A stretch of DNA of 36,233 bases from Gemmatimonas sp. (GCF_027531815.1 NZ_JAPZSK010000023.1:1-36233), one strand, 5' to 3'. Counted from the stretch's first letter, positions 6,593 through 36,094 are shown. Made by a program: numbers and translations. The notes: generated by a model not told the origin, from the sequence alone.

Positions 6593-7119
6593 GCCGCATC
6601 GGACGAAATACTGCCCTCCGCATCATGCCCATCGAGACTTCCGCTTCCTCCGCACCGCAGTACGAGCTTCGCGCGCGCAGTTGGGGCGCGGGTGATGATG
6701 AGCTGGAGGTATGGCAGGTGCTGGCATCTGCGACGCCTCAACTCAAGGCGCCCGTGCGGGTCGCCGGGCTTCGCGGCCGTACCCTGGAGTTGGTGGAGCA
6801 CCGAGTGATTCGCCGACTGAGCCAAGCCGGCGTGAAGTTGATTGGGCGACGTGAGGCAGAGCTCAAGCTGGGTGCGCCACGCGCGCATCCCATTGATGAG
6901 CACATGGCGCTGACGCTTGGACTCCTGTTTCGCACGCTAGCGCCGATGCGCAGCAGAGCGAACATGCTCCTCGTCGCGGACGGTATCGAGGCGATGGGTC
7001 AGGAAGAGGCGGCTTACTGGTTGGGGATGGCGATGCATCGCAAGAATCCGCGGCGGGTGTTGGGCGCGCTGCGCTTGCTACTGACCGATCCCTCACGGCC
7101 TGCGGCGGGCGGACGATGA
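6589..7119 (+). CDS. Small conserved-position protein of the DUF499-methyltransferase operon
   Basis: This 176-aa protein has no family I recognise. Its GTG start overlaps the upstream stop (GTGA, 6589-6592) and GGAG sits 7 nt before it. An internal ATG at 6625 lacks a ribosome binding site. It ends in an ATGA overlap with the methyltransferase. There is no signal peptide or membrane segment. The C-terminal part (~145-165) is helical, with an EEAAYWLGMAMHRKNPRR-like stretch. Related loci also carry a small protein between the ATPase and the methylase (for example DUF3780), so a structural or adaptor role in the complex is likely, but that is inference from position. I did not see DUF3780 hallmarks. 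Confidence 0.75.
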   Translation: MSRIGRNTALRIMPIETSASSAPQYELRARSWGAGDDELEVWQVLASATPQLKAPVRVAGLRGRTLELVEHRVIRRLSQAGVKLIGRREAELKLGAPRAHPIDEHMALTLGLLFRTLAPMRSRANMLLVADGIEAMGQEEAAYWLGMAMHRKNPRRVLGALRLLLTDPSRPAAGGR

Positions 7120-11629: not shown

Positions 11630-11666
11630 CCGCGTCCGCAATTAGGTAACGATGCGGCAATAATCA

Positions 11667-11706
11667 GGCAAGAATGGGGCAACGCGCGGTTGCCTCATTG
11701 CTTGCC
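11667..11706. promoter_or_regulatory. Inverted repeat upstream of the PLD-helicase gene (operator or attenuator)
   Basis: The arms GGCAAGAATGGGGCAAC (11667-11683) and GTTGCCTCATTGCTTGCC (11689-11706) are inverted repeats around GCGCG, with one mismatch and one extra base. They end 21 bp before the ATG at 11728. This is the only non-overlapping junction in the operon. The structure could form an RNA hairpin that lowers helicase expression, or it could be a protein-binding operator. No U-tract follows, so a simple terminator is unlikely. Confidence 0.6.
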
Positions 11707-11727
11707 CAATGACCAGTAACCTGACTG

Positions 11728-14700
11728 ATGCCACAGCTCCCTGACCGTACCTGGCGCCTCAAGTACACCCCGGACGACGGCGACTTCGTCAAGACGTTCT
11801 ACGTGCCCGCCCTCGAATGTGCGATGCAGTACGACCGTGCCACGGGCTACTTCAAGGCGTCGGCGCTGGCGCTCGCCATGCGCGGCGTGGAAGGGCTCGT
11901 GCGCAACAACGGGCGCATGCGACTCGTGGTCGGCTGCACGCTCCACGAGGATGAGATCGCAGCGATTGAGAAGGGTGAGTCGCTGCGCGATGCGGTGGAT
12001 CGCCATCTCGCCGCGCGTCCGCTGGAGCCGCCCGATGACGCGGCGCGCGATGCGTTGGAGTTGCTCGCGTGGATGATCGGCAACGGATTTCTCGAAGTGA
12101 AAGTGGCCGTGCCGTGCGACGACAAGCGTCGACCGATGGCCTCCGACGGCATCTTCCATGAGAAGGCCGGCGTAATCGAGGACGACGCGGGACACCGGCT
12201 CGCGTTCAACGGCTCGATCAACGAGACCGCGGCCGGTTGGAAGTTGAACTGGGAATCGTTCAACGTCTTCACGAGCTGGTCAGGCACCGCGGCGTACGTG
12301 GATGCGGAATCCGCGAGCTTTGCGGCACTATGGGCGAATCAGGCGAAGCGCGCACTTGTGCTGGACGTGCCGTCTGCCGTGAGCGCCGATCTGATGCGCT
12401 TCATGCCGACTAACGACCTGCCGGCACGGCTTATGGTGAAGGACACGACGCGTGAGCCGTACAAGACGCCGGCTGCACCAGCGCCGGTCGTGGTGGATCC
12501 GGTACCCGATATCGATGTGCGGCGCGAAACGTGGGAGTACATCGCGACCGCTCCCATGCTTCCGAACGGCGGTGAGCAGGTAGGCGAAGCCACGTGCGCG
12601 GTGGAGCCGTGGCCACATCAAGTACGCGCGTTTGAGCGGCTTTACGGCGCAGAATCGCCGCGACTGCTGATCGCCGACGAGGTAGGGCTCGGCAAGACTA
12701 TCCAAGCGGGCATGTTGCTTCGGCAGGCGTGGCTGGCGGGCCGCGCGAAGCGCATCCTGATCCTGACACCGGCTGCCGTCATGCAGCAGTGGCAGCTTGA
12801 GCTGCGTGAGAAGTTCAATCTGAACTGGCCGATCTACGATGATGGCCATCTCACGTGGTATCCGTCACCCGGCATGCGTGGGCGAACGGAACGCGCGGTC
12901 GGTCGGGCAGACTGGCACAAGGAGCCCGTCGTCATCGCATCCAGTCATCTTATGCGCCGACGCGAGCGTGAAGACGAGCTGTGCGTGGATGCCGAGCCAT
13001 GGGATCTCATTGTGCTGGACGAGGCGCACCATGCACGACGGAAAGGTGCGGGATCGGAGAAGCAGGAAGGACCGAATGCGTTGCTGCGACTGATGCGGCG
13101 TTTGCGTGCGCGTACGAAGGGGCTCGTGCTGATGACGGCGACGCCCATGCAGGTACACCCGGTCGAGATGTGGGATCTGCTGGACCTGCTAGGCTTGCCC
13201 GCCACTTGGAACGAGTCCGCGTTCCTGCGCTACTTCGCGTTGCTGGGGAAACCGTCACCATCGCACGAAGAGCTCGACGAGCTGGCGTCGATGTTTCGTG
13301 ACGCTGAAGCCGAGTGGGGGCCAGTGGGCACGGAGACGATGGAGCGACTCGGCGTCACGAGCAAGCTCAAGTCGAAGAAGATTCTGGGTGCGCTGCGCGA
13401 TGCGTCGAACATCCCGCGTCGCTCACTCGAAACCGGTGATCGTCAGGCGGCACTGCGTGTGCTGCGCTCAACGACGCCGGTCTCGAAACTCATGTCGCGC
13501 CATACGCGAGATCTACTGCGCCGATATCACAAGGCAGGGAAGCTCACGACACCCATCGCCACACGCAAAGTCGACGACACGTTCATCGAACTGACGCCCG
13601 CGGAACGGGCGGTCTACGAACGCGTCGAGGACTACATCTCGACCACGTACAATCAGGCAGCGCTCGCGGGCGGTACGGCCAAGAACGCCGTCGGATTCGT
13701 GATGACGGTGTACCGGCGTCGTCTGTCATCGAGCTTTCGCGCGCTCGGCAAGACGTTGGAGGCCCGCCTTGAGCCGTTGGCGAGTAAGGGCGTCAATGCC
13801 AACTTCGCCGCTGCTGAGAATGCGTCGGATGACGAAAGTCGCGACGACGTGATGGACGCCGATGAGGCGACGCAGTTGGAGCAGGCGGCGCTCAAGCTGG
13901 AGGAGAGCGACGACATCCAGAGTTTGCTGAAGCAGGTGCGTGCGCTTGCACCCGACACGAAGGCCCGAGTACTCCGTGATACGCTCACACAGTTGCGCGC
14001 CGACGGATACGGCCAGGCGATGGTGTTCACGCAGTTCACGGACACGATGGATTTTCTGCGCAGCTATCTCGTGTCGGAGGATGCGAAGGAACGCAACGCG
14101 GAAGGGGTTGAGGCCGCGCTCCCGCGCATCCTGTGTTTCTCAGGGCGGGGTGGCGAGACACCAGTGCCCGGGGGCACGTGGCAAGCGATCAGCCGCGATG
14201 AGGTGAAGCGCCGTTTCCGTGCGGGCGAAGCCGACGTACTGCTATGCACGGACGCGGCTGCCGAGGGCCTGAACTTCCAGTTCTGCGGCGCGCTCGTAAA
14301 CTATGACATGCCGTGGAATCCGATGCGGGTTGAACAACGCATCGGCCGCATTGATCGACTTGGACAGCGGCATGAAGTCGTGCGGATCGTAAACCTGCAC
14401 TACAAGGACACCGTCGAAGCCGACGTGTACATGGCGCTGCGCAAACGCATCGGACTGTTTGAGGCTGTGGTTGGCCGCCTGCAACCCATCCTGGCTGAAC
14501 TGCCACGCCGCATTTCCGCTTCAGTTCTGCAAGCCGGCCGCGCGACGGATGCGGTGCGGGCGCAACTGGCGTCTGACGTGGCCATGCGCGTTGATGCGCT
14601 CTCGGCGGACACCACCGGGCTGGATCTCGACCTGTTGGGCGACGATGTGCTCGACGTGCCACTCCGGCCCGCGCCCGCGCTCGATCTGGCGTATCTCGAC

Positions 14701-14913
14701 GCCGTTATCGTCCGCTCGAACGTCATGCCCGCCGGTGTCGAGGTCCGCACGCTGGGAGCGGGCGAATACGGATACCTGGCGCCCGGCATGGCGAGCGAGC
14801 TGCGGGTGACGACGGACGCGGACTACTACGAGGCCCACGCGGACAGTGTGGAACTGTGGTCGCCGGGGTCGCCGGTATTTCCTGATCCGGAGAAGGTGTT
14901 AGGACCGGTGTAG
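11728..14913 (+). CDS. PLD-domain SNF2/DEAH helicase (restriction effector of the operon)
   Basis: This 1061-aa protein has a phospholipase-D-type nuclease domain at ~10-190, with H144-x-K146 and GSIN at 162-165. This is one HKD half, so dimerisation would be needed for nuclease activity. A SNF2 (COG0553) motor follows, with motif I ADEVGLGKT at 316-324, DEAH at 431-434, then TATPMQ. The second RecA lobe holds CTDAAAEGLNFQ, then MPWNPMRVEQRIGRIDRLGQ. PLD-helicases accompany COG1743/COG1483 genes in defence-island surveys, and PLD plus helicase functions are split in DISARM (drmC, drmA/D). It probably translocates on and cleaves unmodified DNA. It starts 98 bp after the previous gene, behind an inverted repeat. 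An alternative reading is a remodelling or loading factor for the methylase. Confidence 0.9.
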   Translation: MPQLPDRTWRLKYTPDDGDFVKTFYVPALECAMQYDRATGYFKASALALAMRGVEGLVRNNGRMRLVVGCTLHEDEIAAIEKGESLRDAVDRHLAARPLEPPDDAARDALELLAWMIGNGFLEVKVAVPCDDKRRPMASDGIFHEKAGVIEDDAGHRLAFNGSINETAAGWKLNWESFNVFTSWSGTAAYVDAESASFAALWANQAKRALVLDVPSAVSADLMRFMPTNDLPARLMVKDTTREPYKTPAAPAPVVVDPVPDIDVRRETWEYIATAPMLPNGGEQVGEATCAVEPWPHQVRAFERLYGAESPRLLIADEVGLGKTIQAGMLLRQAWLAGRAKRILILTPAAVMQQWQLELREKFNLNWPIYDDGHLTWYPSPGMRGRTERAVGRADWHKEPVVIASSHLMRRREREDELCVDAEPWDLIVLDEAHHARRKGAGSEKQEGPNALLRLMRRLRARTKGLVLMTATPMQVHPVEMWDLLDLLGLPATWNESAFLRYFALLGKPSPSHEELDELASMFRDAEAEWGPVGTETMERLGVTSKLKSKKILGALRDASNIPRRSLETGDRQAALRVLRSTTPVSKLMSRHTRDLLRRYHKAGKLTTPIATRKVDDTFIELTPAERAVYERVEDYISTTYNQAALAGGTAKNAVGFVMTVYRRRLSSSFRALGKTLEARLEPLASKGVNANFAAAENASDDESRDDVMDADEATQLEQAALKLEESDDIQSLLKQVRALAPDTKARVLRDTLTQLRADGYGQAMVFTQFTDTMDFLRSYLVSEDAKERNAEGVEAALPRILCFSGRGGETPVPGGTWQAISRDEVKRRFRAGEADVLLCTDAAAEGLNFQFCGALVNYDMPWNPMRVEQRIGRIDRLGQRHEVVRIVNLHYKDTVEADVYMALRKRIGLFEAVVGRLQPILAELPRRISASVLQAGRATDAVRAQLASDVAMRVDALSADTTGLDLDLLGDDVLDVPLRPAPALDLAYLDAVIVRSNVMPAGVEVRTLGAGEYGYLAPGMASELRVTTDADYYEAHADSVELWSPGSPVFPDPEKVLGPV

Positions 14914-15069
14914 CAGTCAGTGCGCCGTCCCAATCGGTGATCGCTTGAAACGCCCCGCCGTTCTGGATTAGCAATTAGGGGGAGGGGGCGCCTCGCGCTC
15001 GCCCACGAGGTGCCGCTCGCCAATGAGCGAAGGGCGCATTGTAATAATTCCCGGCGCCGAACCGGCATA

Positions 15070-15120
15070 GCGGGGGAAGCCCCCCCGCGGAGGCGCGGAC
15101 CACCTGTCGGCAGTCCGCGC
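15070..15120. terminator. Two GC hairpins between convergent genes (likely bidirectional terminator)
   Basis: The first hairpin is GCGGGGG/CCCCCGC at 15070-15088. The second is GCGCGGAC/GTCCGCGC at 15093-15120. They lie between the 3' ends of the helicase gene (+) and the basic-protein gene (-). No clear T-run follows, so efficiency as intrinsic terminators is uncertain. Confidence 0.55.
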
Positions 15121-15133
15121 TCCGCTGGGGTGG

Positions 15134-15583
15134 TTAGGCCGTACCCTCCTGCGCCTTGCTGGGGGCGCGGCGACCGGCCGGGCGCTTCTTCGCGATGCCG
15201 CCGCGGGCCTTGGACTTGGGGCGGCGGGACGCCTTGGCGGCGCGCTTGGCACGCGGGCGGCGGGCGGTGCGATCCGCCTCATCGACGGTCACCGACAGGC
15301 TGCCGTTCTCGTGCTCCGCGACCACCGTCGCCATCAGCGTGACCGTGACCTGACGGCCGGTGAGCGACGCGGGGCGCCGACCGGCGCCGATGACCTTCAC
15401 CTGATCGGCGCGGACCGTGAGCTGCACCGGTTTGGTGCCGTTGGTCGCGGACGCCGCCGGCTCCATTGTCGCGACGCCGCTGGGGGACGGGAGCCGCTCG
15501 CCCTTCAGCAAGCACAGTGCGAGCTGGGCCAAGATCTCCGTGGCCTGCCCCGTCGTGGGCAGGAACTGCTGCGAGTGGGACAT
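15134..15583 (-). CDS. Small basic protein with Lys/Arg/Ala-rich tail (element-borne, unknown)
   Basis: This 149-aa protein belongs to no family I can name. The first ~100 residues are mixed, with a beta-rich stretch (QLTVRADQVKVIG, then VTVTLMATVV). The last ~40 residues are a dense Lys/Arg/Ala/Pro tail resembling the tails of histone-H1-like or HU-like DNA-binding proteins. ATG 15583 is chosen because GGAG lies 9 nt upstream; a TTG at 15598 is in frame but has no ribosome binding site. Its promoter (GGCA-17-TAGGCT on the minus strand) has the same layout as those of the transposase operon. It may be a nucleoid-like accessory factor that helps bend or compact element ends. That is inference from composition and context only. 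Confidence 0.7.
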   Translation of the reverse strand: MSHSQQFLPTTGQATEILAQLALCLLKGERLPSPSGVATMEPAASATNGTKPVQLTVRADQVKVIGAGRRPASLTGRQVTVTLMATVVAEHENGSLSVTVDEADRTARRPRAKRAAKASRRPKSKARGGIAKKRPAGRRAPSKAQEGTA

Positions 15584-15606
15584 AGGCAAAATCTCCAAGA
15601 GTAGTG

Positions 15607-15624
15607 GACGACCCCTTGGTCGTC
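15607..15624 (-). promoter_or_regulatory. Leader hairpin/operator before the basic-protein gene
   Basis: GACGACC and GGTCGTC form a perfect 7-bp inverted repeat with a 4-nt loop. It lies between the -10 box (15633-15638) and the ribosome binding site of the gene starting at 15583. It could be an operator overlapping the transcription start, or a 5'-UTR stem. Confidence 0.45.
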
Positions 15625-15632
15625 ACGGCTAC

Positions 15633-15661
15633 AGCCTAGTCCTGCTGCGACGTGTTGCCAT
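15633..15661 (-). promoter_or_regulatory. Promoter of the basic-protein gene (ATGGCA-17-TAGGCT)
   Basis: On the minus strand ATGGCA (15661-15656) is followed by 17 nt and TAGGCT (15638-15633). The ATG is ~50 nt downstream. ATGGCA matches the -35 consensus TTGACA at 4 of 6. The same GGCA-spacer-TAGNCT pattern occurs upstream of the transposase gene (twice) and of the gene at 23488. Confidence 0.5.
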
Positions 15662-16025
15662 TCGCGTGGCCACGACGCCGTCCGCGATCAGTCCCGACGT
15701 CCTCCTTCAATAGACGCGCACCGCCTCCAGACGCAGGCCGCCCCCGCCGGCACTCGCGCAGTCTGTCGAGCCGGCCGCGGTTCTGGACCTCGTCCACTAC
15801 GCTTGCTGGCGCTGGACACCCCTTCGGTGAACCACCCCGGAGGCCTCCAGCAGAGGGTTGGGGACCGGACCACAAAAGCGACCCGGATCCCCTATGCTCT
15901 GGAAGCGAGGGGCTGTTCGGACCGACCGCGGCTTACACCGACCGCTGCGCCTCGGTCCCCTCCGCTACCCTCTCCACCGCAGTTGAACGGCTCGATTCTC
16001 GGGCCACTCACGCACGGAGACACCA
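15662..16025. other. Divergent intergenic region (basic protein / sigma-like gene)
   Basis: About 360 bp without a supportable gene. It holds a perfect 10-bp palindrome GGAGGCCTCC (15839-15848). A plus-strand TATGCT (15893-15898) is a possible -10 for the sigma-like gene, but its -35 (CCACAA, 17 nt upstream) is weak. A GGAG ribosome binding site at 16016-16019 sits 6 nt before the ATG at 16026. Confidence 0.4.
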
Positions 16026-16724
16026 ATGCAGTTTGCATTCGACTTCACGGCCGCCCATGGGCTGGCCACCCTCGTCACCACGGCGCCGGTCACCAGCGAC
16101 CTCCCCGCTTGCGGCACGGTGAATGAGGAGGCAGCGGCCGAGGGGACCGCCAACGACGCCGTCCTGCAGCTGGTACTGCCCCGCGCGGAACGCCTGGCCA
16201 GCCTCGCCTACGTGGCGTGGCCGGTCGAAGGGGTGAGCGTCGACGACCTCACGAACGATCTGGTGCTCGAGGTGCTCGACGCCCTGCCGTTTGCCCCGCG
16301 CCCCCAGACCCCAGCGTTCGATGTTTGGCTCTCGTCCACCCTGATGACGACGACCTACCGCCGCTACACCGCGGCCAAGGCGGAAGCGCGGGCCCACGCC
16401 GACGCGATGCGTGAGCTGGCCGGGGTGAGCACGGCAGCGTGGGACGTCGACGACGAAGACGACGCGATTCAGGCGGCCACGCCCATGACCCCGCGCCCCC
16501 AGCCCGCGCGGCTCACCCTGCAGTCTGTCCTCGCCACGCTGGATGTGGAGGACGCGCGGCTGCTCCGCTGGCGGGCGGACGATGTGACCTGGGAGTGCAT
16601 CGCGCGGCGCCTCGACGTGTGCCCGCGAACAGCGCGTCGGCGCCATGCGGCTGCGCTCGAGCAGGCGCGTCGCATCGCCCGCGGGGCGCCGCAGGACTGG
16701 GCGGTCGTCGACCGCGCCGCCTGA
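16026..16724 (+). CDS. Sigma-70/ECF-like factor carried by the transposition module
   Basis: This 232-aa protein has the two-block layout of small sigma factors. A region-2-like helical block (~50-130) holds SVDDLTNDLVLEVLDALP and then FDVWLSSTLMTTTYRRY, like the AEDLVQEVFL and WL segments of ECF sigmas. An acidic linker follows (DVDDEDD). A region-4-like helix-turn-helix lies at ~160-215, with LLRWRADDVTWECIARRL and then VCPRTARRRHAAALEQAR. The start has GGAG 6 nt upstream. It is the first plus-strand gene of the module and is followed by a strong hairpin. It may drive the GGCA-TAGNCT promoters found in front of several module genes. It is divergent from canonical sigmas, so a general HTH regulator is the main alternative. 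Confidence 0.6.
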   Translation: MQFAFDFTAAHGLATLVTTAPVTSDLPACGTVNEEAAAEGTANDAVLQLVLPRAERLASLAYVAWPVEGVSVDDLTNDLVLEVLDALPFAPRPQTPAFDVWLSSTLMTTTYRRYTAAKAEARAHADAMRELAGVSTAAWDVDDEDDAIQAATPMTPRPQPARLTLQSVLATLDVEDARLLRWRADDVTWECIARRLDVCPRTARRRHAAALEQARRIARGAPQDWAVVDRAA

Positions 16725-16739
16725 GCAGGACCTGTGTTT

Positions 16740-16763
16740 CGCGCCCGGCGAACGCCGGGCGCG
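16740..16763 (+). terminator. Perfect GC hairpin after the sigma-like gene (attenuator/terminator)
   Basis: GCGCCCGGCG (16741-16750) and CGCCGGGCGC (16753-16762) form a perfect 10-bp stem with an AA loop, extended by one more C-G pair. It begins ~16 nt after the stop at 16724 and ends 22 nt before the next ATG. No T-run follows. It probably reduces read-through or stabilises the upstream mRNA. Confidence 0.55.
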
Positions 16764-16785
16764 CGTACCCAACAATCGGAGGCGT

Positions 16786-17934
16786 ATGAGCCAGAGCTTG
16801 AACGATGGGCGGCTGCCGTTCGTGGAGCCCACTGATGGCGCCTGTATCGAAGGGGCGACGTGTGTCCGCGCCACGGAGGACCGCACGAGCCGTCGCGGTA
16901 CGCTGTACCGCCAGATCCTCCTCGGCAATCGGAACGGGCAGTTCGCGCTGAACCTGTTTGCGGATCAGATGGCCGCTTGGAACGGGATCCGTCAGGGGGA
17001 CGGCGTGTGGGTCTCGCTGGTCGGTCGCGCGGGCAGCGGTGGCTACGGGCCCAGCTGGTCGCACGACGGAGTTGTCCGCCTGGACGATGCACACCCCTTT
17101 CGCGACGACCTCCTGCCGCCCTGTCCGGTGCCCGAAGAGGAGCTGCGCGAGCGCTTTGCCGCTCTCGTTGCGCGGATGTCCTCGCCGGCCGCCGCTGTGC
17201 TGGCGGCGGTACTGCGCGAAGTCACCGAGGAGGCCTATTGGCGCGCCCCCGCCGCCCAGCGTCTCCATCACGCTGTCGCCCCGTTCGGGCTCGTGTGGCA
17301 CTCCTGTGAAGTGACCGAGCTGGCGTTGCTGATGGCCACGCTGCCGCGCTACACGGCCATGTTAAACAGGGACGTGTTGATCCTCGGCGGCCTGCTGCAC
17401 GACGTCGGCAAGACGATGGAGTACGCGGTGCAGCCGGGCGTGGGGATCACCCGGGCGCCGGTGGCGGCCTCCCGATACCACACCACGCTGGGCGTCCAGA
17501 TCGTGACCGCGGCCGTCACGCGGGCCGAAGCGGAGTTGGCGGCGGCGGGCACCCCGCGGTGGCTGGTCGATGCGGTCTTGGCTGTGATCGAGAGCCACCA
17601 CGGGATCCGCGAACACGGGTCGCCCACGGCGCCCGCCAGCGCCGAGTCGTGGGTGCTGCACTTGGCGGATATGGCGTCGGCACGCCTCGCGGCGACCTAC
17701 GACGCGTTGGAAACGGCCACGCCCCTCGACGAGCCCACGTGGTACCGCAACGGCCGGGACGTGATCCAGGCGTTCCATGAAGTCGCCGTGGTGCCGGAGC
17801 CCGCGCCGGCGACCGACGCGCCCATCGCCCAGCCGCAGGGCGAGGAGCCGCCCTCCGCGGCCGACCAGCCCAACGACCCGGGGGAGGTCCCGGAGGGCGT
17901 CGTCCGCCTCATCGTCAACACGGAGGATGCGTGA
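16786..17934 (+). CDS. YhaM-like HD-domain 3'-5' exoribonuclease with N-terminal OB fold
   Basis: This 382-aa protein fits the YhaM family of Mn-dependent 3'-to-5' exonucleases acting on RNA and single-stranded DNA. An OB-like beta domain lies at ~25-105, with LYRQILLGNRNGQFALNLF and then GDGVWVSLVGRAG. The HD domain has HH at 161-162, H205-D206 in GGLLHDVGK, HHG at 271-273 followed by an EHGSPTAP-like segment, and a later LHLADMASARL. These are the YhaM metal ligands in order. A ~55-aa acidic/Pro-rich tail ends the protein. ATG 16786 is chosen for GGAGG just upstream; the longer open frame upstream overlaps the sigma-like gene. The stop overlaps the next gene by GTGA. Its place beside a transposase is unusual; it may process nucleic acid ends, but that is inference. 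Confidence 0.8.
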   Translation: MSQSLNDGRLPFVEPTDGACIEGATCVRATEDRTSRRGTLYRQILLGNRNGQFALNLFADQMAAWNGIRQGDGVWVSLVGRAGSGGYGPSWSHDGVVRLDDAHPFRDDLLPPCPVPEEELRERFAALVARMSSPAAAVLAAVLREVTEEAYWRAPAAQRLHHAVAPFGLVWHSCEVTELALLMATLPRYTAMLNRDVLILGGLLHDVGKTMEYAVQPGVGITRAPVAASRYHTTLGVQIVTAAVTRAEAELAAAGTPRWLVDAVLAVIESHHGIREHGSPTAPASAESWVLHLADMASARLAATYDALETATPLDEPTWYRNGRDVIQAFHEVAVVPEPAPATDAPIAQPQGEEPPSAADQPNDPGEVPEGVVRLIVNTEDA

Positions 17935-18326
17935 ACGAGCCCAACCTGCAGGCCCTGCCCACCATACGCCCCCTCGGCGGCGGCCGGGTAGCGATTGATC
18001 TGCACGAGTCGGATCTGACCAAGCTCCGCTGTGAGCTGCTCCTCGCCGCGGCAGACGGCTCCCCGAGCAGCGAGGTGTGGCGGTCGCTCGCCTGGTCCCT
18101 GTCGCCGAGTGAGGACCGCCGCGTGTCGCTCTCCCGGGCCGCGTACACCGAGCTGGTGCGCGTGCTGTGCCGCAGCACGGTTACGCGCCGCATCGCCCAC
18201 ACCCACGCCCGGCGCCTCGAGTTGGCCCGCGTGCTGGTCCCGGTGCTGGGCCCCGCGGTGCACGAGGCGGTCCGCGCGGAGTGCCGCGCCCTGCGCGCCG
18301 ACCGCAAGCGCGCCGCCGGCGGCTGA
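17931..18326 (+). CDS. Hypothetical protein coupled to the HD nuclease gene
   Basis: This 131-aa protein is unrecognised. The GTG start overlaps the upstream stop (GTGA) and GGAGG lies 4 nt before it. The first ~45 residues contain a strand-turn segment (GGRVAIDLHESDLTKLRCELLLAA). The C-terminal half is a long basic amphipathic helix region rich in Arg and Ala, ending in RKRAAGG. There is no signal peptide, membrane segment or Cys cluster. Translational coupling suggests it works with the HD nuclease, perhaps as a nucleic-acid-binding partner; this is context only. Confidence 0.65.
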   Translation: MNEPNLQALPTIRPLGGGRVAIDLHESDLTKLRCELLLAAADGSPSSEVWRSLAWSLSPSEDRRVSLSRAAYTELVRVLCRSTVTRRIAHTHARRLELARVLVPVLGPAVHEAVRAECRALRADRKRAAGG

Positions 18327-18374
18327 CGGCGAGGGCCCCGGCCGGCCCTCAATCCGGGGGCCGGCTGGCATTCC

Positions 18375-18401
18375 GGCAATCTGGCGGAGATGCGCTAGTC
18401 T
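18375..18401 (+). promoter_or_regulatory. Promoter P1 of the transposase operon
   Basis: GGCA (18375-18378), 17-nt spacer, TAGTCT (18396-18401). The -35 hexamer as CCGGCA matches TTGACA at only 3 of 6. The layout is shared with P2 and with the minus-strand promoter at 15633-15661. Confidence 0.45.
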
Positions 18402-18447
18402 CGCCGCGCCCATGCTCGCCCCCAGTCCGGAGGCCGGCGGGCATCGT

Positions 18448-18474
18448 GGCAGCTTGGCGGAGATGCGCTAGGCT
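18448..18474 (+). promoter_or_regulatory. Promoter P2 of the transposase operon
   Basis: GGCA (18448-18451), 17-nt spacer, TAGGCT (18469-18474). The -35 as GTGGCA matches TTGACA at 4 of 6. It is the nearer of the two tandem promoters; the start codon is 46 nt downstream of the -10 box. Confidence 0.5.
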
Positions 18475-18519
18475 CGCCGCGCTCGCCGATGGTCCTCCGT
18501 TCCTCAACACGACGAATCC

Positions 18520-19839
18520 ATGAAAAAACGCGCTGCTCGCCAGTCCGGAAAGAAAGGCTCCTCGCGCCGCCGCCCCACCGCCCCCCGCTCGCGTCGTCGG
18601 CGCGCGGGGGCGGCCCGTGGACGGTCGTCGACCCAATCGCAGCAGGCCCCTCGCGGCGGTCCTCGCAAGACCATGGAGGAGGCGCCCGAAGCGCACCAGC
18701 GGATCGCCCTGACGAAACAGGGGCTCGTCGAGGAGGTGCTGCTTCGCCGGGATACGCTTGGCCTCAACGGTGCCATCAATTTCGTGTGCGACGAATTCGT
18801 CGGCCTGGACGATGAGCCGGTGTCCCCGACCTCCCTGCGCCGCTGGGTCGAGCAGTATGACGCCCACGGCCTGGCCGGACTGCTGCGCCAGCAGCGCACG
18901 GACCGCGGCCTCCGTCGGTCGCTCGACGCGCTCGCCGCCCGGCACCGCCTGAACGCGGACGCGCTCGAACGCTTCATGCACAACACGCTGATCACCGGGC
19001 GCGGGAGCGCCGCGGTGCTGTTCGAGGCGCTCACCGAGACTTGGTCCCGCGTCCCATGGAATCAAAAGACGGTACAACGGTGGGCCCGTCTGTGGAAAGC
19101 CGAGAACCCGCACCTGCTCAAGATGGTGCAGGAGGGCGAGGGGCGGTTCCTCGACCACTGCGCCCTGTATCTGGGGTGGAGCGAGATCGCGCCGCTGGCC
19201 TGGGCACTCCTCGACTCCACCCAGCTGGATAAGCGCGTCACCCTGCCCCCTGGCCACCCGCAGGAGGGGGCGGTGGTCCGGCCCTGGGTGTCGTTGATGC
19301 TGGACCTCGGGTCTCGCGCGGCGGTGACGTTTGAGATCACGCTCACGCCACCCACCCCGGCGACCATGAAAAGCCTCTTGCGGCGCGCGTGGTGTGCCGG
19401 GGAGAACTGGCAGGGCTTGCCCACGGTGCCGCTGCCGCAGCACGTCCGCGTCGATGCCGGCTCGGAGCACAAGGGCGCGTTCCAGGAGGCCCTCGCGGCG
19501 TTTGGGCTCGACAAGCGTGTCCCCAAAGGGATGCCCGAACGCCAAGCCCATATCGAGCGCGCGGTGAAGACCGTGTTCGGCGATGCCGTGCGCGGCCGCC
19601 CGGGGTGGACCGCGGTTGAACGGGTTGCTGATGAGACGGATACCTCCACCCGCGAGCATGCCCGCAGCAAAAACGCTGAACGCGAGGCCCGGCGGAACGA
19701 GACCCCCAAGAAGAACCTGATGACGCTCACGGAGTGCACCGAACGGATTCGGCAAATCGTGCTGCGCTACAACGCGCAGCTCCATAGCGGCCTCGCGCAG
19801 GAGTACCGCGACCGCGTCGCGGCCTCCCAGGTCGCCTAA
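18520..19839 (+). CDS. Mu/Tn7-type DDE transposase, catalytic subunit (lacks its C-terminal barrel)
   Basis: This 439-aa protein would cut and join transposon ends. It has a basic N-terminal tail (~1-50) and helix-turn-helix-like DNA-binding segments at ~60-190 (PTSLRRWVEQYDAHGLAGLL; later NQKTVQRWARLW). An rve-type catalytic core follows with D232 (LLDSTQLD), D312 (RVDAGSEH) and E346 (QAHIERAVKTVFG). All three acidic residues are present, with D-to-E spacing close to the usual DDE range. It ends soon after YNAQLHSGL, the position where MuA/TnsB/TniA proteins continue into the Mu C-terminal beta-barrel. That barrel is encoded by the next ORF, starting 14 bp downstream in another frame. The family's usual length is ~550-700 aa. 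ATG 18520 has no clear ribosome binding site; 18673 is an alternative. Confidence 0.85.
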   Translation: MKKRAARQSGKKGSSRRRPTAPRSRRRRAGAARGRSSTQSQQAPRGGPRKTMEEAPEAHQRIALTKQGLVEEVLLRRDTLGLNGAINFVCDEFVGLDDEPVSPTSLRRWVEQYDAHGLAGLLRQQRTDRGLRRSLDALAARHRLNADALERFMHNTLITGRGSAAVLFEALTETWSRVPWNQKTVQRWARLWKAENPHLLKMVQEGEGRFLDHCALYLGWSEIAPLAWALLDSTQLDKRVTLPPGHPQEGAVVRPWVSLMLDLGSRAAVTFEITLTPPTPATMKSLLRRAWCAGENWQGLPTVPLPQHVRVDAGSEHKGAFQEALAAFGLDKRVPKGMPERQAHIERAVKTVFGDAVRGRPGWTAVERVADETDTSTREHARSKNAEREARRNETPKKNLMTLTECTERIRQIVLRYNAQLHSGLAQEYRDRVAASQVA

Positions 19840-19852
19840 CCCCACGCGTCCC

Positions 19853-20701
19853 ATGCCACGTCAGACTCACAACCACTCCGCGCCGAACACGTCGCGGTTC
19901 ACGCCCCAGTTCGTCCTGACGGACGCCCTCGCGCTGCGCGCGAGGGCGGTGGGTCCGCTCCAGGCCCCTGACCCGCTCCTCTTCCTGCACGAGGTCCTGC
20001 GGGTGGTGGACAAGGATGGCATCGACATCGCGGGAGTCCGTTTCATGAGTCCCGCGCTGCTGCCATTTGTGGGTACGAAGGTGAAGCTGCCGGTTCGGTA
20101 TGACGCGGCGGCCGCCAATCGCCGGCAACTGACGCGGGTGTTCGTGATCATCGAAGCGACTCGCGACCGGTCGCGGAGCGTCATTGAGTGCCTGCCACGC
20201 CCGTATGTGCGCGAGACCACCGACCGCGAGGGGTTCGAGGCCGAATCGCGCCGGTACCGCGAGTCGCTCAAGCAACAGGTCGAGGAGGCCGTCGAGGCCA
20301 CGGCCCGTCGTCGCGGCGGCCACGCGGCCGGTCAACGCCAACGGGATCTCCACAACACGCGCCGGCATCAGGGGCGCGCTGGGCAGGAGCAGTCCGGCTA
20401 CGGCCCGCCGCGTCCTGAGGTGGAGGCGGGGGTGCGGAAGGCCGCCAAGGCCAAGCTCGAGAAAAAGCTCGAGAAGCTGGACCCCACGGCGAGGGCCAAG
20501 GCCAAGACGAAGGGCAAGGCTGAGACCAAGGCCAAGACCGAGTCGAAGTCGAAGCCCGGCGCCGGCCGCGCGAAAAAGTCAGCGGGCACACGCCGCCAGT
20601 CGACGGGACGTAAGGCCCCCGGCGCCGACAGCGCATTCAGCGCGTGGAGCCAGCTGGGCAAGGCGGCGGACAGCAAGTCGAACCGTAAGCGCCCGACCTG
20701 A
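19853..20701 (+). CDS. Mu-transposase C-terminal domain protein (second half of a split transposase)
   Basis: This 282-aa protein carries, at ~53-101, the Mu C-terminal beta-barrel signature. DGIDIAGVRFMSPALL is followed by GTKVKLPVRYD and RVFVIIE. In TnsB and MuA the same module reads like GIRF-Y-SP-L---G--V-VRYDP---V-V. A charged helix follows (~120-170), and the C-terminal ~70 residues are a Lys/Ala/Thr-rich tail. In MuA and TnsB the extreme C-terminus contacts MuB/TnsC, and the next gene here is that ATPase. ATG 19853 lies 14 bp after the catalytic ORF's stop in a different frame. Reading this frame upstream gives no family-like sequence, so I treat it as a separate subunit and not a frameshifted tail. 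No good ribosome binding site is visible. Confidence 0.8.
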   Translation: MPRQTHNHSAPNTSRFTPQFVLTDALALRARAVGPLQAPDPLLFLHEVLRVVDKDGIDIAGVRFMSPALLPFVGTKVKLPVRYDAAAANRRQLTRVFVIIEATRDRSRSVIECLPRPYVRETTDREGFEAESRRYRESLKQQVEEAVEATARRRGGHAAGQRQRDLHNTRRHQGRAGQEQSGYGPPRPEVEAGVRKAAKAKLEKKLEKLDPTARAKAKTKGKAETKAKTESKSKPGAGRAKKSAGTRRQSTGRKAPGADSAFSAWSQLGKAADSKSNRKRPT

Positions 20702-20748
20702 CAGCAGCCCGTCGCCGGGGGCACGCTGGAGCACCTCAACCGGACCGC

Positions 20749-21546
20749 ATGACCCACATCCCGAAACTCGTTCCGCTCCCGTGGCACCCGGCGGCCCTCG
20801 CGCTCCTCGACGAGGTGCGCGCCGGGCACGAGCGCGCCTGGATTGTCGGCCCCAAAGGCGTTGGCAAATCGTACCTGCTCAAGGCTCGCGCGCTCGCGAC
20901 TGCCACCGAACCGCGACGCTTCGTCTACACCTCGGTGGGGGCCGTGCGTTCGGGCACCGGCGTGTTGTGCACGGTGCTCGACGCAATTCACGGCGTGCAG
21001 CCAACGGTGAACAGTCTGCTGGGATCGGTCAGTGACCGCGCGCGGCGCCGCGGCGCGACCTACCTCCTGCAGCTGTGCGCGGATGAACTGCACCTGCGCA
21101 ACGTGGGCGCCGTGCTGGTGGACGAGGCCCCGCAGCTCGCGACCCCCGCGCTGATCCACGTGACCCAACTGGTGGACCACTGCCGGGACCGGCACCAGCA
21201 CCCGCTGGGGCTCGCGTTCGTCAGCACCACCACCGAACTCGCCGCGCTGCAGGCAAGTGGGGAACTTGGGCAACGGCTCTCGACGCTGCTGCCGATTCCG
21301 CCGCTCGCACCGGGGGACGTGGAGTGGGTGATCGCGCAGCTCAGCCCCGCGGTGAGTCGGGTGCTCGGGAAGGCGGGGGGACGACGGGCGGAGGCGGTGT
21401 TGTTGCGCCTGACTGAAGAGGTCGACGGCCGTGTTCGGCCGCTCGCGGAAATCGTGTACCGCGCGGAGCGCCTGGCGCGTGCCGAGGGACGTGCCGTGGC
21501 CCTCGAGCATGTGGTGCTGGCCATCGCGATGCAAGCGAAAAGATGA
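20749..21546 (+). CDS. TnsC/TniB/MuB-like AAA ATPase
   Basis: This 265-aa protein has a Walker A, GPKGVGKS, at 34-41 and a Walker B, AVLVDEAP, with D125-E126. The sensor-1-like FVSTTTEL follows, and then a C-terminal helical lid. Size and order fit the TnsC/TniB/MuB transposition regulators, which bind target DNA and activate the transposase. It lies directly after the two transposase ORFs, as in Tn7, Tn5053 and Mu-type elements. The stop overlaps the next start (ATGA at 21543). There is no obvious ribosome binding site for its own ATG, so translation may depend on upstream ribosomes 47 nt away. IstB/DnaA-type ATPases are the main alternative, but the position favours TnsC/TniB. Confidence 0.85.
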   Translation: MTHIPKLVPLPWHPAALALLDEVRAGHERAWIVGPKGVGKSYLLKARALATATEPRRFVYTSVGAVRSGTGVLCTVLDAIHGVQPTVNSLLGSVSDRARRRGATYLLQLCADELHLRNVGAVLVDEAPQLATPALIHVTQLVDHCRDRHQHPLGLAFVSTTTELAALQASGELGQRLSTLLPIPPLAPGDVEWVIAQLSPAVSRVLGKAGGRRAEAVLLRLTEEVDGRVRPLAEIVYRAERLARAEGRAVALEHVVLAIAMQAKR

Positions 21547-23375
21547 TGCGGCGCTGGGACGAACGCATCGCCACGGCCGCGGAACGCGCGGGCCGTGGGC
21601 GCCCATGGTTCGGGTTTCCCGAACTCCGTCGCGAACTCGTCATCCTCGGCGACGGCGCCACGCCCAACGGCGGGACGCTGCGCCGCACCCTGCGCGCATT
21701 GCAGCCGTCGCTGTTGCTGCCGGTGCCGCCGGGGGTGTGGTTCGTGGCCGAGGCGGACGAGATCACGCGGCGAGGCCGTCGCGTGGGGAGCCCGCGCTAT
21801 CGCCTCGTTGGACAAGCCGTGGAGGGGGATGATCCGGCGTTCCTGGACGATGCGGGTCGCGTCCTGGTGGCGCTGTACGTGGCGAGCGGACTCGCGGCCA
21901 CGCCCTACGTGCCGACACAGCTGGTCACCGATGTGCTGCACGCCGAACTGGCCTTGACGCTCGAGACGCGCCAGCAGACGTCCATGCTGCTACAACGGCT
22001 GGCCCACGACTTCCCCCTCCTGGTGGATCAGGACCGTGGACGGGGCCGCACGGCGCTGTGGGGCGCTGTGGGGGTGCTGCGGGAGGTCTGGCGCGACCGC
22101 GTCGACGAATGGGCCGAGCAGCTCGGGCCGCGTCTGGTGCGGAGCAGGCGCCTCGCGCAGGAGGGGGCGCGTTCGGCGGCGGAGCTGGCGGTGCGCGTGG
22201 TGGAGCTGGTCGAGCAGCGCGTGCGGGATGCGCAGTGGCCGAATGGCCGGCCCGTGTCGCTGCGGCGGATCACCGAGCAGATCAGCGTGGCGCGGTGTAC
22301 GACGAGCTCAGACGAGACCGACGAACACTTGGTGCGTCTCGCCGAGATCCTGCAGCGCCGGGATCGCGATCTCGGCGAGGCGCTGCGGTCGGCCTGTCGG
22401 GTGCAGTACACCAATGGCAGACGGGCGCGCGCGCCGCAGCTGGTGGCGCTGCATCCGCTGGGGCAGGAGAACGCGTCGTATGCATCGATCTCGCTCCCGC
22501 GGGCGGTCCGCGCGGCGTGGGTGCCGTGGCGTGACCTGCAGGCGCGGTGCAATCGCGCGGCGTTTCGTCGGCTCGAGCAGGAGCGGATCGCGATCCGGGC
22601 CCTGCGCGGGGCGGACGACCCACATCTGGCGATATTGGCCGCGGTGCGTGAAGTGCTCGCCGTGCGCGAACTGGCGGCGATGCGTCGCGCCGTGGCGGAG
22701 ATGCTGCCGTTGGCGTCGGCGGTGTCGTCGGCGCTGGAGGAGCGCCGGCGGGCGCTGCACCACGCCGCGGAGCGCGCGGCCGTCGGCTGGCCCGAGTTGG
22801 CCACGGCCGAGTCGCGGGCGAGAGCGCTCCTACGCCCGTCGCGGCTCGCGCTCGATGCCGTCTGCGATGTGCCCCGGCCCACGATGCCCATCGCGCAGTT
22901 CGCCGCGCTGACGCCCGCGTTCAAACGCGGGACGCTGAGCGATGGCGTGCTGGCCGCCAACGCGATCACCGTGCGCAAGGTGCGCGACCCGCGTGGCCGA
23001 CGCTCCGCCGTGGGGCAGGGCAGGACCCCGAAGTACCGGTTGGATCGGGTCGACGCCCTCGAGTACCTCGTCGAGAGCACGGGGGCGCCGGGGCGCACGC
23101 TGTTCATTGCTGGCGCCCGGTTGCTTGGGCCGTGGCTCGCCGAGATCGCCCTGGTTCGTCCGCTGCTGTCGCATGGTAATGCGGACGTCCGCAATGGGGC
23201 GCTGGGGGCCGTCCTCCTGCTGGGGGACCTCGGGCTGGCCGAGCGCACCCTCCGGCAGCGGGAGAAGGCGGCGAGCCCCGCCACGCGGCTCGACCGCGAG
23301 GCCGCCACGGCCGCCCGCTGGTGGATGGCCCGGCTCGCCGGACCGGGCGGCAGGCAGGGGGCGTCAGGACGGTGA
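21543..23375 (+). CDS. Unknown 610-aa protein in the target-selector (TniQ/TnsD) position
   Basis: I do not recognise a family. The start ATG overlaps the TnsC-like stop (ATGA), so the two products are made together. Residues ~1-95 look like a winged helix with a basic wing (GFPELRRELVIL, TLRRTLRALQPSLLLP, GVWFVAEADEI). A second helical DNA-binding-like region lies at ~120-180. The segment at ~455-510 (TLSDGVLAANAITVRKV, then KYRLDRVDALEYLV) resembles a short DNA-binding domain. The C-terminus (~530-590) has HEAT-like helices. There is no Cys/His zinc-finger cluster as in TniQ/TnsD. Position suggests it chooses the target or recognises ends. The stop TGA lies in TGAACCGCCCCG, a 12-mer identical to the IS3 tip, so a 3' truncation by an old insertion is possible. 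Confidence 0.65.
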   Translation: MMRRWDERIATAAERAGRGRPWFGFPELRRELVILGDGATPNGGTLRRTLRALQPSLLLPVPPGVWFVAEADEITRRGRRVGSPRYRLVGQAVEGDDPAFLDDAGRVLVALYVASGLAATPYVPTQLVTDVLHAELALTLETRQQTSMLLQRLAHDFPLLVDQDRGRGRTALWGAVGVLREVWRDRVDEWAEQLGPRLVRSRRLAQEGARSAAELAVRVVELVEQRVRDAQWPNGRPVSLRRITEQISVARCTTSSDETDEHLVRLAEILQRRDRDLGEALRSACRVQYTNGRRARAPQLVALHPLGQENASYASISLPRAVRAAWVPWRDLQARCNRAAFRRLEQERIAIRALRGADDPHLAILAAVREVLAVRELAAMRRAVAEMLPLASAVSSALEERRRALHHAAERAAVGWPELATAESRARALLRPSRLALDAVCDVPRPTMPIAQFAALTPAFKRGTLSDGVLAANAITVRKVRDPRGRRSAVGQGRTPKYRLDRVDALEYLVESTGAPGRTLFIAGARLLGPWLAEIALVRPLLSHGNADVRNGALGAVLLLGDLGLAERTLRQREKAASPATRLDREAATAARWWMARLAGPGGRQGASGR

Positions 23376-23398
23376 ACCGCCCCGTCCGGTGCCCCCGC

Positions 23399-23427
23399 GG
23401 CAATCACCCCCACAGCGCTCCTAGACT
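23399..23427 (+). promoter_or_regulatory. Candidate promoter for the coiled-coil protein gene (GGCA-19-TAGACT)
   Basis: GGCA (23399-23402) is followed by a 19-nt spacer and TAGACT (23422-23427). The ATG is at 23488 with AGGAGG 5 nt upstream. The spacer is 2 nt longer than in the three other module promoters, so this is the weakest of the set. Confidence 0.4.
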
Positions 23428-23487
23428 CGGTGTGCAGAGGGTCGGAGATGCCGGCCACTGCGCTACCCGAAACGCCAGGAGGCGTTG

Positions 23488-24213
23488 ATGTACCCGAATG
23501 GTTTGTTGCTCACGCTCGCCGTCAGGGCGAGCCCGCAGGCTCACGACGGCACGCTGCCGTCCACGCTCGTCATCCCCAACCAGCTCCCCGCCGGCGCGGG
23601 CAGGCTGCACATCCAGCTCGCGGTGCAGGGGGTTGCCGCACCCACCCTCAACTCCCCCAACGCCGCGGTGCCGCACACGCCGGTGGTGTCGCCGGCCCCG
23701 GTGGAACCGGTGTTGGCGGCGGGTGCACCGCCCGTGTCGCGGGACTACGACACCCCGGTTCCGCAGGACGAGTCGACGGCGGAGCCCATCGTCGTGACGG
23801 CCATCGCGCTGACCCCGGAGCTCGAGGAGTTCGTCATCGACCGCGTCGCGGAGGACATCGACGAGGCCATCGATAACCTGCGTGATGAAACGCTTCCCTC
23901 CATGATCGACGAATGCGTCGAACAGAAGGTCAGCGAGGCGATGTACGAGCACGCCGAAACGCTGGAGAGCCTCGAGTCACGAATCGATGATCTTGAAGAG
24001 CGGGAGGCCGGCATTGACGAGGACACGTTCGAGGACCTGCGACTCGACGTGCTCACGCTCACTGGACGGGTCGATCAGCTGAACGTCCTCCGCGACACCA
24101 TCGCCGAGCTCACCGCGACGTGCGCGGCGTTGACGGCACGGGTCGCACAGCTCGAACACGCCGCTTGCGGTACCCCTCGCGATGGCGAGACCGTCGTCGA
24201 GGAAGAGGGGTAA
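23488..24213 (+). CDS. Acidic coiled-coil protein (unknown)
   Basis: This 241-aa protein starts at ATG 23488 with a strong AGGAGG 5 nt upstream; a TTG one codon earlier is too close to it. Residues ~1-55 are mixed and beta-like, ~55-100 are a Pro/Ala/Val linker, and ~105-230 are a long acidic coiled coil (LEEFVIDRVAEDIDEAID, then LESLESRIDDLEER and LTARVAQLEH). It is strongly acidic, in contrast to the Lys/Arg-rich tails of the 149-aa and 282-aa proteins, and might bind them. It has its own promoter candidate and ends the plus-strand module; a hairpin follows at 24264. No family is recognised and function is unknown. Confidence 0.7.
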   Translation: MYPNGLLLTLAVRASPQAHDGTLPSTLVIPNQLPAGAGRLHIQLAVQGVAAPTLNSPNAAVPHTPVVSPAPVEPVLAAGAPPVSRDYDTPVPQDESTAEPIVVTAIALTPELEEFVIDRVAEDIDEAIDNLRDETLPSMIDECVEQKVSEAMYEHAETLESLESRIDDLEEREAGIDEDTFEDLRLDVLTLTGRVDQLNVLRDTIAELTATCAALTARVAQLEHAACGTPRDGETVVEEEG

Positions 24214-24263: not shown

Positions 24264-24299
24264 CAGCCCCTGGTCCACCGTGCGGTGGGTCAGGGGCTG
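24264..24299. terminator. Long hairpin after the coiled-coil gene (probable bidirectional terminator)
   Basis: CAGCCCCTG (24264-24272) pairs with CAGGGGCTG (24291-24299), and CCACC pairs with GGTGG inside, giving a nearly continuous stem around a small loop. It lies 51 bp after the stop at 24213 and overlaps the stop of the minus-strand gene fragment (24290), so it may serve both directions. No T-run is present. Confidence 0.6.
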
Positions 24300-24490
24300 T
24301 GTCGTACGCGTGGCAACGGTACAGGGCGGTCCGCCATCGACCACGTATCCACCAGCTCTACGCCAGCGGCGCGATACCGGGCGAAAACGTCCTGGCCGTC
24401 CCACCCTGAGGGCATCTTGGCGCGCAGCCCCGCTGCGTTGAGGGCCTGGTCCTCTTCGACCGTGACCACGGCGCCCACGCCGAGGAACTA
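24290..24490 (-). pseudogene. 3'-end fragment of a homologue of the gene at 26337-26825
   Basis: In the minus frame ending at 24290 the peptide GAVVTVEEDQALNAAGLRAK, followed by MPSGWDGQDVFARYRAAG and VELVDTW, matches the C-terminal third of the 162-aa protein encoded at 26337-26825 (about 85-90% by eye). A TAG stop at 24490-24488 lies just upstream in frame, so only ~65 codons remain. At DNA level 24418-24480 is 100% identical to 26468-26530. Similarity is weaker but continues past the stop, and it ends sharply at 24480. This is a gene remnant or attachment-like duplicate, not an expressed gene. Confidence 0.8.
24418..24480 (+). repeat. 63-bp direct repeat, copy 1
   Basis: Identical at every base to 26468-26530 and in the same orientation, 2,050 bp apart. 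Identity stops abruptly at 24481/26531, while to the left it decays to roughly 75-85%. It is part of the coding sequence for the C-terminus of the hypothetical gene. Confidence 0.9.
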
Positions 24491-26930: not shown

Positions 26931-28193
26931 CTACTCATCAGGCGCTCGCCACGCGGCGAACCGACGCAGGACGTCGGTGCCGCCCAATAGCTCGCGGGCT
27001 TGCGACAGGCGCGAACGAACTGCGGCCTGCTCCTCCTCCGGAAGCGCACCGGCTCGGCGCTGCAGGTCCTCAAGGAAATCCTCGCGAGCCTTCGCGACGG
27101 CCCAGGCCTCGATGATCTTGGCCAGCTGTTCGCGGCTCTCCACGATCTGCCGTTCGCGACGACGCTGCGCCTCTTCTCGCGCCCATATCGCCTGCTTGCG
27201 CTCCCACTCGATACGCGCCGCCTCCGCCCGGGTGTGCCCCTCCTTCACGAGCTCCACCAGCACCGGGGCTGCCGCCTCGAGACCGCGCACGATGGCGGGG
27301 ATCATGTCGACCAACGTGCGTCCACTCGTTTCCTCCCACTGCTGCTCCCACTTTGCCACATGGTACGGTGACGACGCACGCAGGCACAGCCGGCCTGATG
27401 CGAGCTCCTTGTGCGTCGTCCAGGATGCGGCGCCATACCCGCCTCGTTTCGGCGGCGCGAGCTTGGCGACCGGCACATACTCGCCGTTGAGGTAGCGCAC
27501 CTCGGTGTTCTCGCTCTGCTCGTAGATAGTGAGCCCTATGGCCACGGTGCCAATGAAAGCCACGGTTGGCCGGTCGGGCGCCCATTTGCTGTGATACGCG
27601 TCGTACCCATCCCGGCGCTTGGGCGGGTTCTTGCGCTCCTCCAGCGCTGGTCGGTACAACTCCTCGCCAGCTCGGGCAATGGCCACGGGATACCCGCGCG
27701 CCTCGAGTGCGCGGTAGAGTGTCGAGCTGACGGTCAGCGCGCGGTCGAGTATTTCCGGCGAGACATACAGATCCGGCAGGGCGCGACGAAATGGCCGAAG
27801 GTGGCCGCTGTCCGCGGCGCGTCGGGAATTGAGAAAGTCCTGCTTGACGTTGGCGACCACGGGGTGCGGGCCATCCGTGGGGATGGTCGATTTGACCTTC
27901 GTTCGGCGCCGTCGTTCAGGGGCGACAGGTAGCGCTCGCCGTTCACGACGGAGGGCCTGCCCGCGGGTCCATTCGACGGCGTCTCCGGGATTCGCCGGCG
28001 GGAGCGGCGGCCGCTTCGGGGCCTTGTTGACCGCCAGCTTCGCCCAGTACCCGCGAGCAGGGCGCGGGATGTTCATCTCCGTGCACACGCGAGCGAGAAA
28101 GCTTGAGGAGACACCGTAACGGGCAGCGACCGCAACCGCGGGTTCAGTCCAGATCTCCTCGTACAGGGTTTCACGAGTGACAGGGAAAGGCAT
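26931..28193 (-). CDS. Conserved hypothetical protein with N-terminal HTH
   Basis: This 420-aa protein starts at ATG 28193 (MPFPVTRETLYEEIWTEPA). The first ~60 residues form a helix-turn-helix followed by MNIPRPARGYWAKL. I recall this RETLYEEIWSEP...GYWAK block from many uncharacterised bacterial proteins, but not with a known function. The middle has a beta-rich region (PTVAFIGTVAIGLTIYEQ), and residues ~300-390 form a long charged helix or coiled coil (EAARIEWERKQAIW, REEAQRRRERQIV). No enzyme motif is evident. The gene is divergent from the SIR2 gene, with 125 bp between them. An in-frame extension to 28355 would overlap the SIR2 start and is less likely. Confidence 0.65.
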   Translation of the reverse strand: MPFPVTRETLYEEIWTEPAVAVAARYGVSSSFLARVCTEMNIPRPARGYWAKLAVNKAPKRPPLPPANPGDAVEWTRGQALRRERRALPVAPERRRRTKVKSTIPTDGPHPVVANVKQDFLNSRRAADSGHLRPFRRALPDLYVSPEILDRALTVSSTLYRALEARGYPVAIARAGEELYRPALEERKNPPKRRDGYDAYHSKWAPDRPTVAFIGTVAIGLTIYEQSENTEVRYLNGEYVPVAKLAPPKRGGYGAASWTTHKELASGRLCLRASSPYHVAKWEQQWEETSGRTLVDMIPAIVRGLEAAAPVLVELVKEGHTRAEAARIEWERKQAIWAREEAQRRRERQIVESREQLAKIIEAWAVAKAREDFLEDLQRRAGALPEEEQAAVRSRLSQARELLGGTDVLRRFAAWRAPDE

Positions 28194-28318
28194 AGGGTTG
28201 CATTGCCTCAGCGAGAGGGCAGAGCCGAAGTCGCGAATGTCTTTGCCAAGCAGTAGGATCACAAGGGGCAGATGAAGAAGAATGCCGAACGCTGTATTAC
28301 ACAAACCGGAGTTGGAGA

Positions 28319-29602: not shown

Positions 29603-29604
29603 CG

Positions 29605-36092: not shown

Positions 36093-36094
36093 AT

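Follow-up and report, generated by a model that had tools for sequence, protein, structure and literature searches.

A Tn552/TniA-related transposition module with a sigma-like gene, a YhaM-family nuclease and a candidate selector in a Gemmatimonas defence island

Do the nine adjoining open reading frames (ORFs) at positions 15134–24213 of a Gemmatimonas contig, here called A to I, form one transposable element, and is that element of a known type? The contig, C23 of genome G000 (4.3 Mb), was analyzed over its entire 36,233 bp, which we refer to as the window. An earlier note on this DNA had proposed an undescribed Mu/Tn7-like element with a sigma-like factor, an HD nuclease and a novel selector, lying in a defence island that it could mobilize. 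Our analysis indicates that B-C-D-E/F-G-H (16026–23375, every gene on the + strand) is probably a transposition module of the DDE plus AAA+ kind, one that falls within the Tn7/Mu superfamily on its TniA/TniB (Tn552-type) branch. All nine ORFs are present at the coordinates of Table 1 and are gene-like by the guanine-plus-cytosine (GC) content of their codon positions (0.83–0.92 at third positions, GC3), and the 4-nt overlaps of C with D and of G with H are operon-like. The ratios of nonsynonymous to synonymous substitution (dN/dS) against relatives, computed without the B of G221 and the ATPase of G212 (wrong or broken frame), are all below 1: 0.19 for H, 0.20 for the 3′ part of G, 0.38 for I and 0.54 for B, as well as 0.09 for A, from only five differences.

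The evidence that these genes belong together comes from other genomes. A search of related genomes based on C led to G017, another Gemmatimonas, and a later profile search led to G212, which belongs to another genus. In G017 (contig C175) B-C-D-transposase-ATPase-H stands in the same order, with aligned parts 25–51% identical and flanks unrelated to those of the window; in G212 (contig C458) C-D-transposase-ATPase-H is found, 64–89% identical to G017, B lying beyond the contig end. Since the order recurs in both genomes, the genes form one unit and are not chance neighbors: the alternative that synteny would reveal unrelated neighbors was examined, and the unit survived. The coherence claimed in the earlier note thus holds, as does the membership of the sigma-like gene and the HD nuclease, both of which recur in the G017 order. 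In contrast, the basic protein A and the acidic coiled-coil protein I, which had also been counted in, have no counterpart in G017, and we therefore excluded them from the core. Parts of the module occur in 4 of 30 Gemmatimonas genomes; searches of 179 genomes of the class with an H profile, of 149 with E, and of viral contigs, plasmids and phages found no further close member, and searches of G013 with E and H found nothing. Judged from these sequence comparisons, the recurring order is far beyond chance, and these genes make up a genuine transposition module, both conserved and rare, so far seen only in Gemmatimonadaceae.

The transposase is divided between two ORFs. E matches the PHROG transposase profile phrog_310 (expectation value, e-value, 6.8e-26), and its residues D232, D312 and E346 align with the catalytic positions of Tn552-type transposases, so that the DDE triad is intact; F, which matches Mu-transpos_C (7.9e-8), starts at 19853, 14 nt after the E stop codon (19837–19839) and in another frame. 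Joined, E and F align over ~430 aa with the single-chain transposases of Tn552-type elements (S. aureus pC205_2 and Cutibacterium pTZC1), with blastp e-values of 7e-20 and 9e-18 and 21–26% identity. The adjoining G matches AAA_22 (2.5e-6) and the PHROG “DNA transposition protein” profile phrog_296 (1.5e-8), and its G017 homologue itself matches Pfam TniB at 1e-5; the ATPase gene of G212 (L098, G212:C458, near 316) carries a frameshift or a sequencing error. In both G017 and G212 the transposase is a single-ORF DDE protein. BLAST aligns neither of them with E plus F, and hhalign sees only distant similarity between the window and G017 transposases, whereas B, C, D, G and H all have detectable homologues; the transposase has either evolved much faster than the other genes or been replaced.

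Among the accessory genes, B is weakly sigma-like, matching TIGR02937 (sigma70-ECF, 2.2e-5) and DUF6362 (4.4e-6), both below cutoffs, and Sigma70_r4_2 at 0.1, also below cutoff; it has a homologue at the matching position in G017 (blastp 3e-4). The start of C, in a frame open from 16645, was placed to fit its homologues. The protein has an N-terminal OB domain followed by an HD domain with intact metal-binding residues, as in YhaM (cmp-binding factor 1), an OB plus HD 3′-5′ exonuclease, and it matches the NCBIfam YhaM model at 3.6e-16 (below that model’s equivalog cutoff), Pfam HD at 9.4e-9 and the solved YhaM structure 9h3f at 9.8e-23 (two-sequence profile). With a G017 homologue 51% identical (1e-108), it is the best conserved gene of the module. 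D has homologues in G017 (blastp 1.3e-4) and, by way of the G017 copy at 89%, in G212. Upstream of the transposase, the second copy of a 73-nt tandem duplication contains the promoter-like GTGGCA-N17-TAGGCT. We dropped a reading of these repeats as transposase-binding sites because G017 has, as read by eye, one similar promoter-like site at the corresponding place; the repeat is probably a duplicated promoter.

H occupies the position in which Tn7-like systems have TniQ or TnsD. It is 92% identical to its counterpart in UKL202c and distantly related to that of G017 (blastp 7e-6), and by its dN/dS it is, like G, under purifying selection; profile scans assigned it to no family, and a match of residues 25–90 to the Fur protein is marginal (0.95). 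The novel-selector role put forward in the earlier note comes from gene position alone; a target selector or adaptor is the simplest guess.

We then asked whether the module fits a known system. Its core enzymes do: they are of the Tn552/TniA-TniB kind within the Tn7/Mu superfamily. In the Tn552-type elements a DDE transposase with a Mu C-terminal domain is followed by an AAA ATPase gene, and the stretches shown have no annotated TniQ, as here. They differ from the window in carrying a serine recombinase beside a single-chain transposase, whereas here the transposase is split and family scans of A to I found no resolvase family; moreover, B, C, D and H are additions relative to them, and G has no significant match to their ATPases. 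Tn7-like transposons (TnsABC plus TniQ/TnsD, including branches lacking tnsA) likewise combine a DDE transposase, an AAA+ regulator and a downstream protein, and the window has both a TnsB-type DDE transposase with a Mu C-terminal domain, in two ORFs, and a TnsC/TniB-type ATPase. However, as the earlier note had remarked, neither a TniQ nor a TnsA family was found in scans of the module, flank and G017 proteins, and neither end arrays of transposase sites nor a 5-bp target duplication rose above control. Since TniQ and TnsA were tested for and are absent, we did not file the module as Tn7-like. A more typical Tn7-like module of Gemmatimonadaceae, with TnsB and an ATPase, was noted in G009 (L009, 8904–11906), and TnsB with an apparent ATPase-TniQ fusion bearing zinc-finger cysteines, by sequence reading, in G095 (L010, 9102–14625). 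No matching element was found in the collections searched, in agreement with the earlier note. Its idea of an undescribed element type holds for the accessory set, B, C, D and H together with the absence of TniQ and TnsA being what is new; it fails for the DDE core, because the transposase is clearly related to Tn552/TniA.

By analogy with these relatives, E and F together would bind at the ends of the element, where they would nick the 3′ ends and join these to the target, and G would mark the target DNA and activate the transposase. The product would be a cointegrate made by a replicative route, as predicted from the absence of TnsA; branches of Tn7-like transposons without tnsA are described as replicative (PMC8649781). 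As no resolvase is encoded, resolution would fall to host recombination. From its gene position, H might replace TniQ/TnsD in choosing the target and recruiting G. As a conjecture, B could control the operon and C could trim nucleic-acid ends at the joint or the element’s transcripts, the evidence not separating RNA from DNA ends.

Where the element begins and ends was approached through relatives. Similarity to UKL202c begins at 21016 of the window, where the UKL202c contig ends, and breaks off sharply at 24310, just past a hairpin downstream of I; the right flank is not shared. G013 shares 3433–17081, comprising the Hma-like genes, A, B and the start of C, except for a divergent methyltransferase stretch (7177–9108), and its left context differs; its C gene is cut by an insertion sequence (IS) at CTAG (L031, 13530–13692, at the end of G013:C71). 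From these two limits, 3433–24310 may be a mobile unit that carries the Hma-like neighbors as defence cargo, such cargo being common in Tn7-like transposons (PMC8649781). Both flanks of the G017 module are found together only in G006, the genome to which UKL202c corresponds, with 5.9 kb of unrelated DNA between them, which fits a variable slot better than a clean insertion, and the right flank of the window was not found intact anywhere in the genus. No tRNA was found as a target site.

Several observations weigh against a functional mobile module. Scans for terminal repeats and target duplications with shuffled controls, and for inverted or direct repeats in the main intergenic regions as well as at both similarity limits, gave nothing above control, and related genomes offered no clean empty site, so that the ends, empty sites and duplication expected from the earlier note were not demonstrated, and both mobility and the cargo status of the Hma-like genes are inferred. 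G000 has a single copy of the module; the splitting of the transposase could render it inactive; the unalignable window and G017 transposases mean that the module may be a mosaic; and AlphaFold predictions for H are of low confidence, with no detectable fold. Two of these points, the divided transposase and the single copy, would suit a decayed Tn552-like transposon lying beside unrelated regulatory genes, which we regard as very improbable, since the conserved order in G017 and G212 largely refutes it, the DDE, ATPase and HD residues are intact, and dN/dS for H and G is well below 1. A domesticated, non-mobile DDE/AAA+ machine that belongs to the workings of the defence island, acting on invading DNA, for instance, has somewhat more to recommend it but still seems unlikely: the position between the Hma-like and SIR2-HerA genes, the missing ends and the left junction with the Hma-like genes kept in G013 are set against a G017 module with other neighbors and a different transposase, a patchy occurrence in the genus and a G013 copy broken by an IS. 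The best profiles for E and G, phrog_310 and phrog_296, are phage transposition families and match at profile level the genes of BcepMu-like phages, but we consider a remnant of such a transposable prophage to be the least credible explanation of all: tblastn of E and C against phages found no match, relatives of H, E or the G017 transposase were not found in viral contigs, the proteins scanned in the surroundings of the window and G017 copies included no head or tail families, and the neighbors are defence genes rather than virion or lysis genes, with no phage records matched.

A more substantial rival, to which we grant a sizeable minority share of the probability, is that B, C and D are a general helper or regulatory set of the mobile elements in this family, concerned with expression control, RNA decay or stability and combined with different recombinases, and that transposition itself is left to E/F-G-H. 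C is the best conserved gene while the transposase is unalignable, and YhaM relatives are known as exoribonucleases (PMC11347170). Compared with YhaM, element-type C forms a separate high-scoring class linked to recombinase genes, scoring above 170 bits against less than 117 bits for other YhaM-like matches, with the exception of a short fragment at a G212 contig end (107 bits). Beyond G000, G017, G212 and the IS-cut G013 fragment, this class was found only in G221, twice. The two G221 loci (L096 and L097; 86.5% DNA identity over 7.8 kb) encode an unknown 929-aa protein, a sigma-like protein, a different AAA+ protein, the C homologue and, last, a protein of 678–690 aa, but not the DDE transposase, ATPase or H. 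The two copies of this last protein, at 49% protein identity, differ far more than the rest of the loci; it has tyrosine-recombinase-like motifs, with R, K, R, GH and Y unchanged between the copies, and weakly resembles XerC (0.041), a motif-level reading that makes it a probable divergent tyrosine recombinase. On the other side, B-C-D is joined directly to the transposase, ATPase and H in both the window and G017, and in G221 only C is supported as a homologue: the matches to B and D are not significant, and the sigma-like protein, with weak matches to sigma70 regions 2 and 4, is not alignable to B. The G221 loci hint that C belongs to a set able to partner more than one kind of recombinase. 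A parallel in principle is TnsF, a selector common to the Tn7-like Tn6022 and the tyrosine-recombinase transposon Tsy (PMC10293859), which are a precedent for one accessory factor in both DDE and tyrosine-recombinase elements; here the shared gene is C. TnsF, which works together with TniQ, combines zinc fingers with a recombinase-like fold, whereas H has four scattered cysteines in 610 aa and no family match. It is a speculative extension of the transposition module, and one we think rather doubtful, that it represents a DDE lineage without TniQ and TnsA in which H, an unrelated selector whose N terminus may form a winged helix, directs the AAA+ regulator, and C processes ends or joints and is exchangeable, perhaps with its sigma-like partner, also serving tyrosine-recombinase elements.

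The setting of the module agrees with the earlier note in part. Family scans of the window proteins place it inside a phage-defence island, between the Hma-like genes and the SIR2-HerA genes, but mobilization of the island was looked for and not demonstrated. GC content is 70.7% in the module block, 63.3% on the left side, with the defence genes, and 61.1% on the right. The contig carries the same IS end at both of its termini, in inverted orientation; it was thus broken at IS copies, and its true surroundings are hidden. Of the neighbors, A (26 K+R versus 11 D+E) is 99% identical in G013, where it accompanies B and the start of C, and is absent from G017; I (46 D+E versus 13 K+R) adjoins H in UKL202c and is likewise absent from G017. 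Further to the right, a startless open stretch at 24300–24490 (− strand), reading FLGVGAVVTVEEDQALNAAGLRAKMPSGWDGQDVFARY and just outside the right similarity limit, may represent the tail of a truncated gene; a 474-aa protein without a family is encoded at 26931–28355 (− strand), and 93% identical DNA is found alone on G017:C172; and a SIR2 and HerA pair at 28319–31344 strongly matches the PADLOC SIR2 and HerA models.

Table 1. Positions of the module genes and surrounding features in the window
Feature	Position	Strand	Description
IS-end copies	1–140 and 36094–36233		140 nt, inverted relative to each other; 99% to UKL202c (L006, 10366–10506)
Left similarity limit	3433	.	versus G013; with the Hma-like genes as cargo, candidate left boundary
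Hma-like defence set	3551–14913		DUF499/HmaC, DUF7680, DUF1156 methyltransferase (HmaB), Schlafen AlbA_2 protein, PLD-SNF2 helicase
A	15134–15598	−	basic 154-aa protein, lysine-rich tail; neighbor, module membership unsupported
B	16026–16724	+	232-aa sigma-like/helix-turn-helix protein, presumed regulator; TIGR02937, DUF6362, G017 homologue
C	16786–17934	+	OB-fold plus HD nuclease, YhaM family; YhaM and HD profiles, structure match, G017 homologue
D	17931–18326	+	small protein, 131 aa, no family; overlaps C by 4 nt
Tandem duplication	18335–18480	+	73-nt repeats, 79% identical; upstream of transposase
E	18520–19839	+	N-terminal half of split Tn552/TniA-type transposase, with the catalytic part (RNase H, DDE)
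F	19853–20701	+	C-terminal transposase half, Mu-transpos_C barrel and long basic tail
G	20749–21546	+	AAA+ ATPase, TnsC/TniB-like regulator
H	21543–23375	+	610-aa protein sharing 4 nt with G; candidate target selector or adaptor
I	23485–24213	+	acidic coiled-coil 242-aa protein; neighbor, membership unsupported beyond UKL202c copy
Right similarity limit	24298–24310	.	versus UKL202c; candidate right boundary

Our literature search found no paper describing such elements in Gemmatimonadota. The module adds to those of the Tn7/Mu superfamily that lack TniQ, with a defined gene set of B, C, D and H, and it suggests that DNA mobility has taken on a YhaM-family nuclease, a family whose known role otherwise lies in RNA decay. 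Should the Hma-like neighbors be cargo, the module would be a vehicle for defence genes in Gemmatimonadota.

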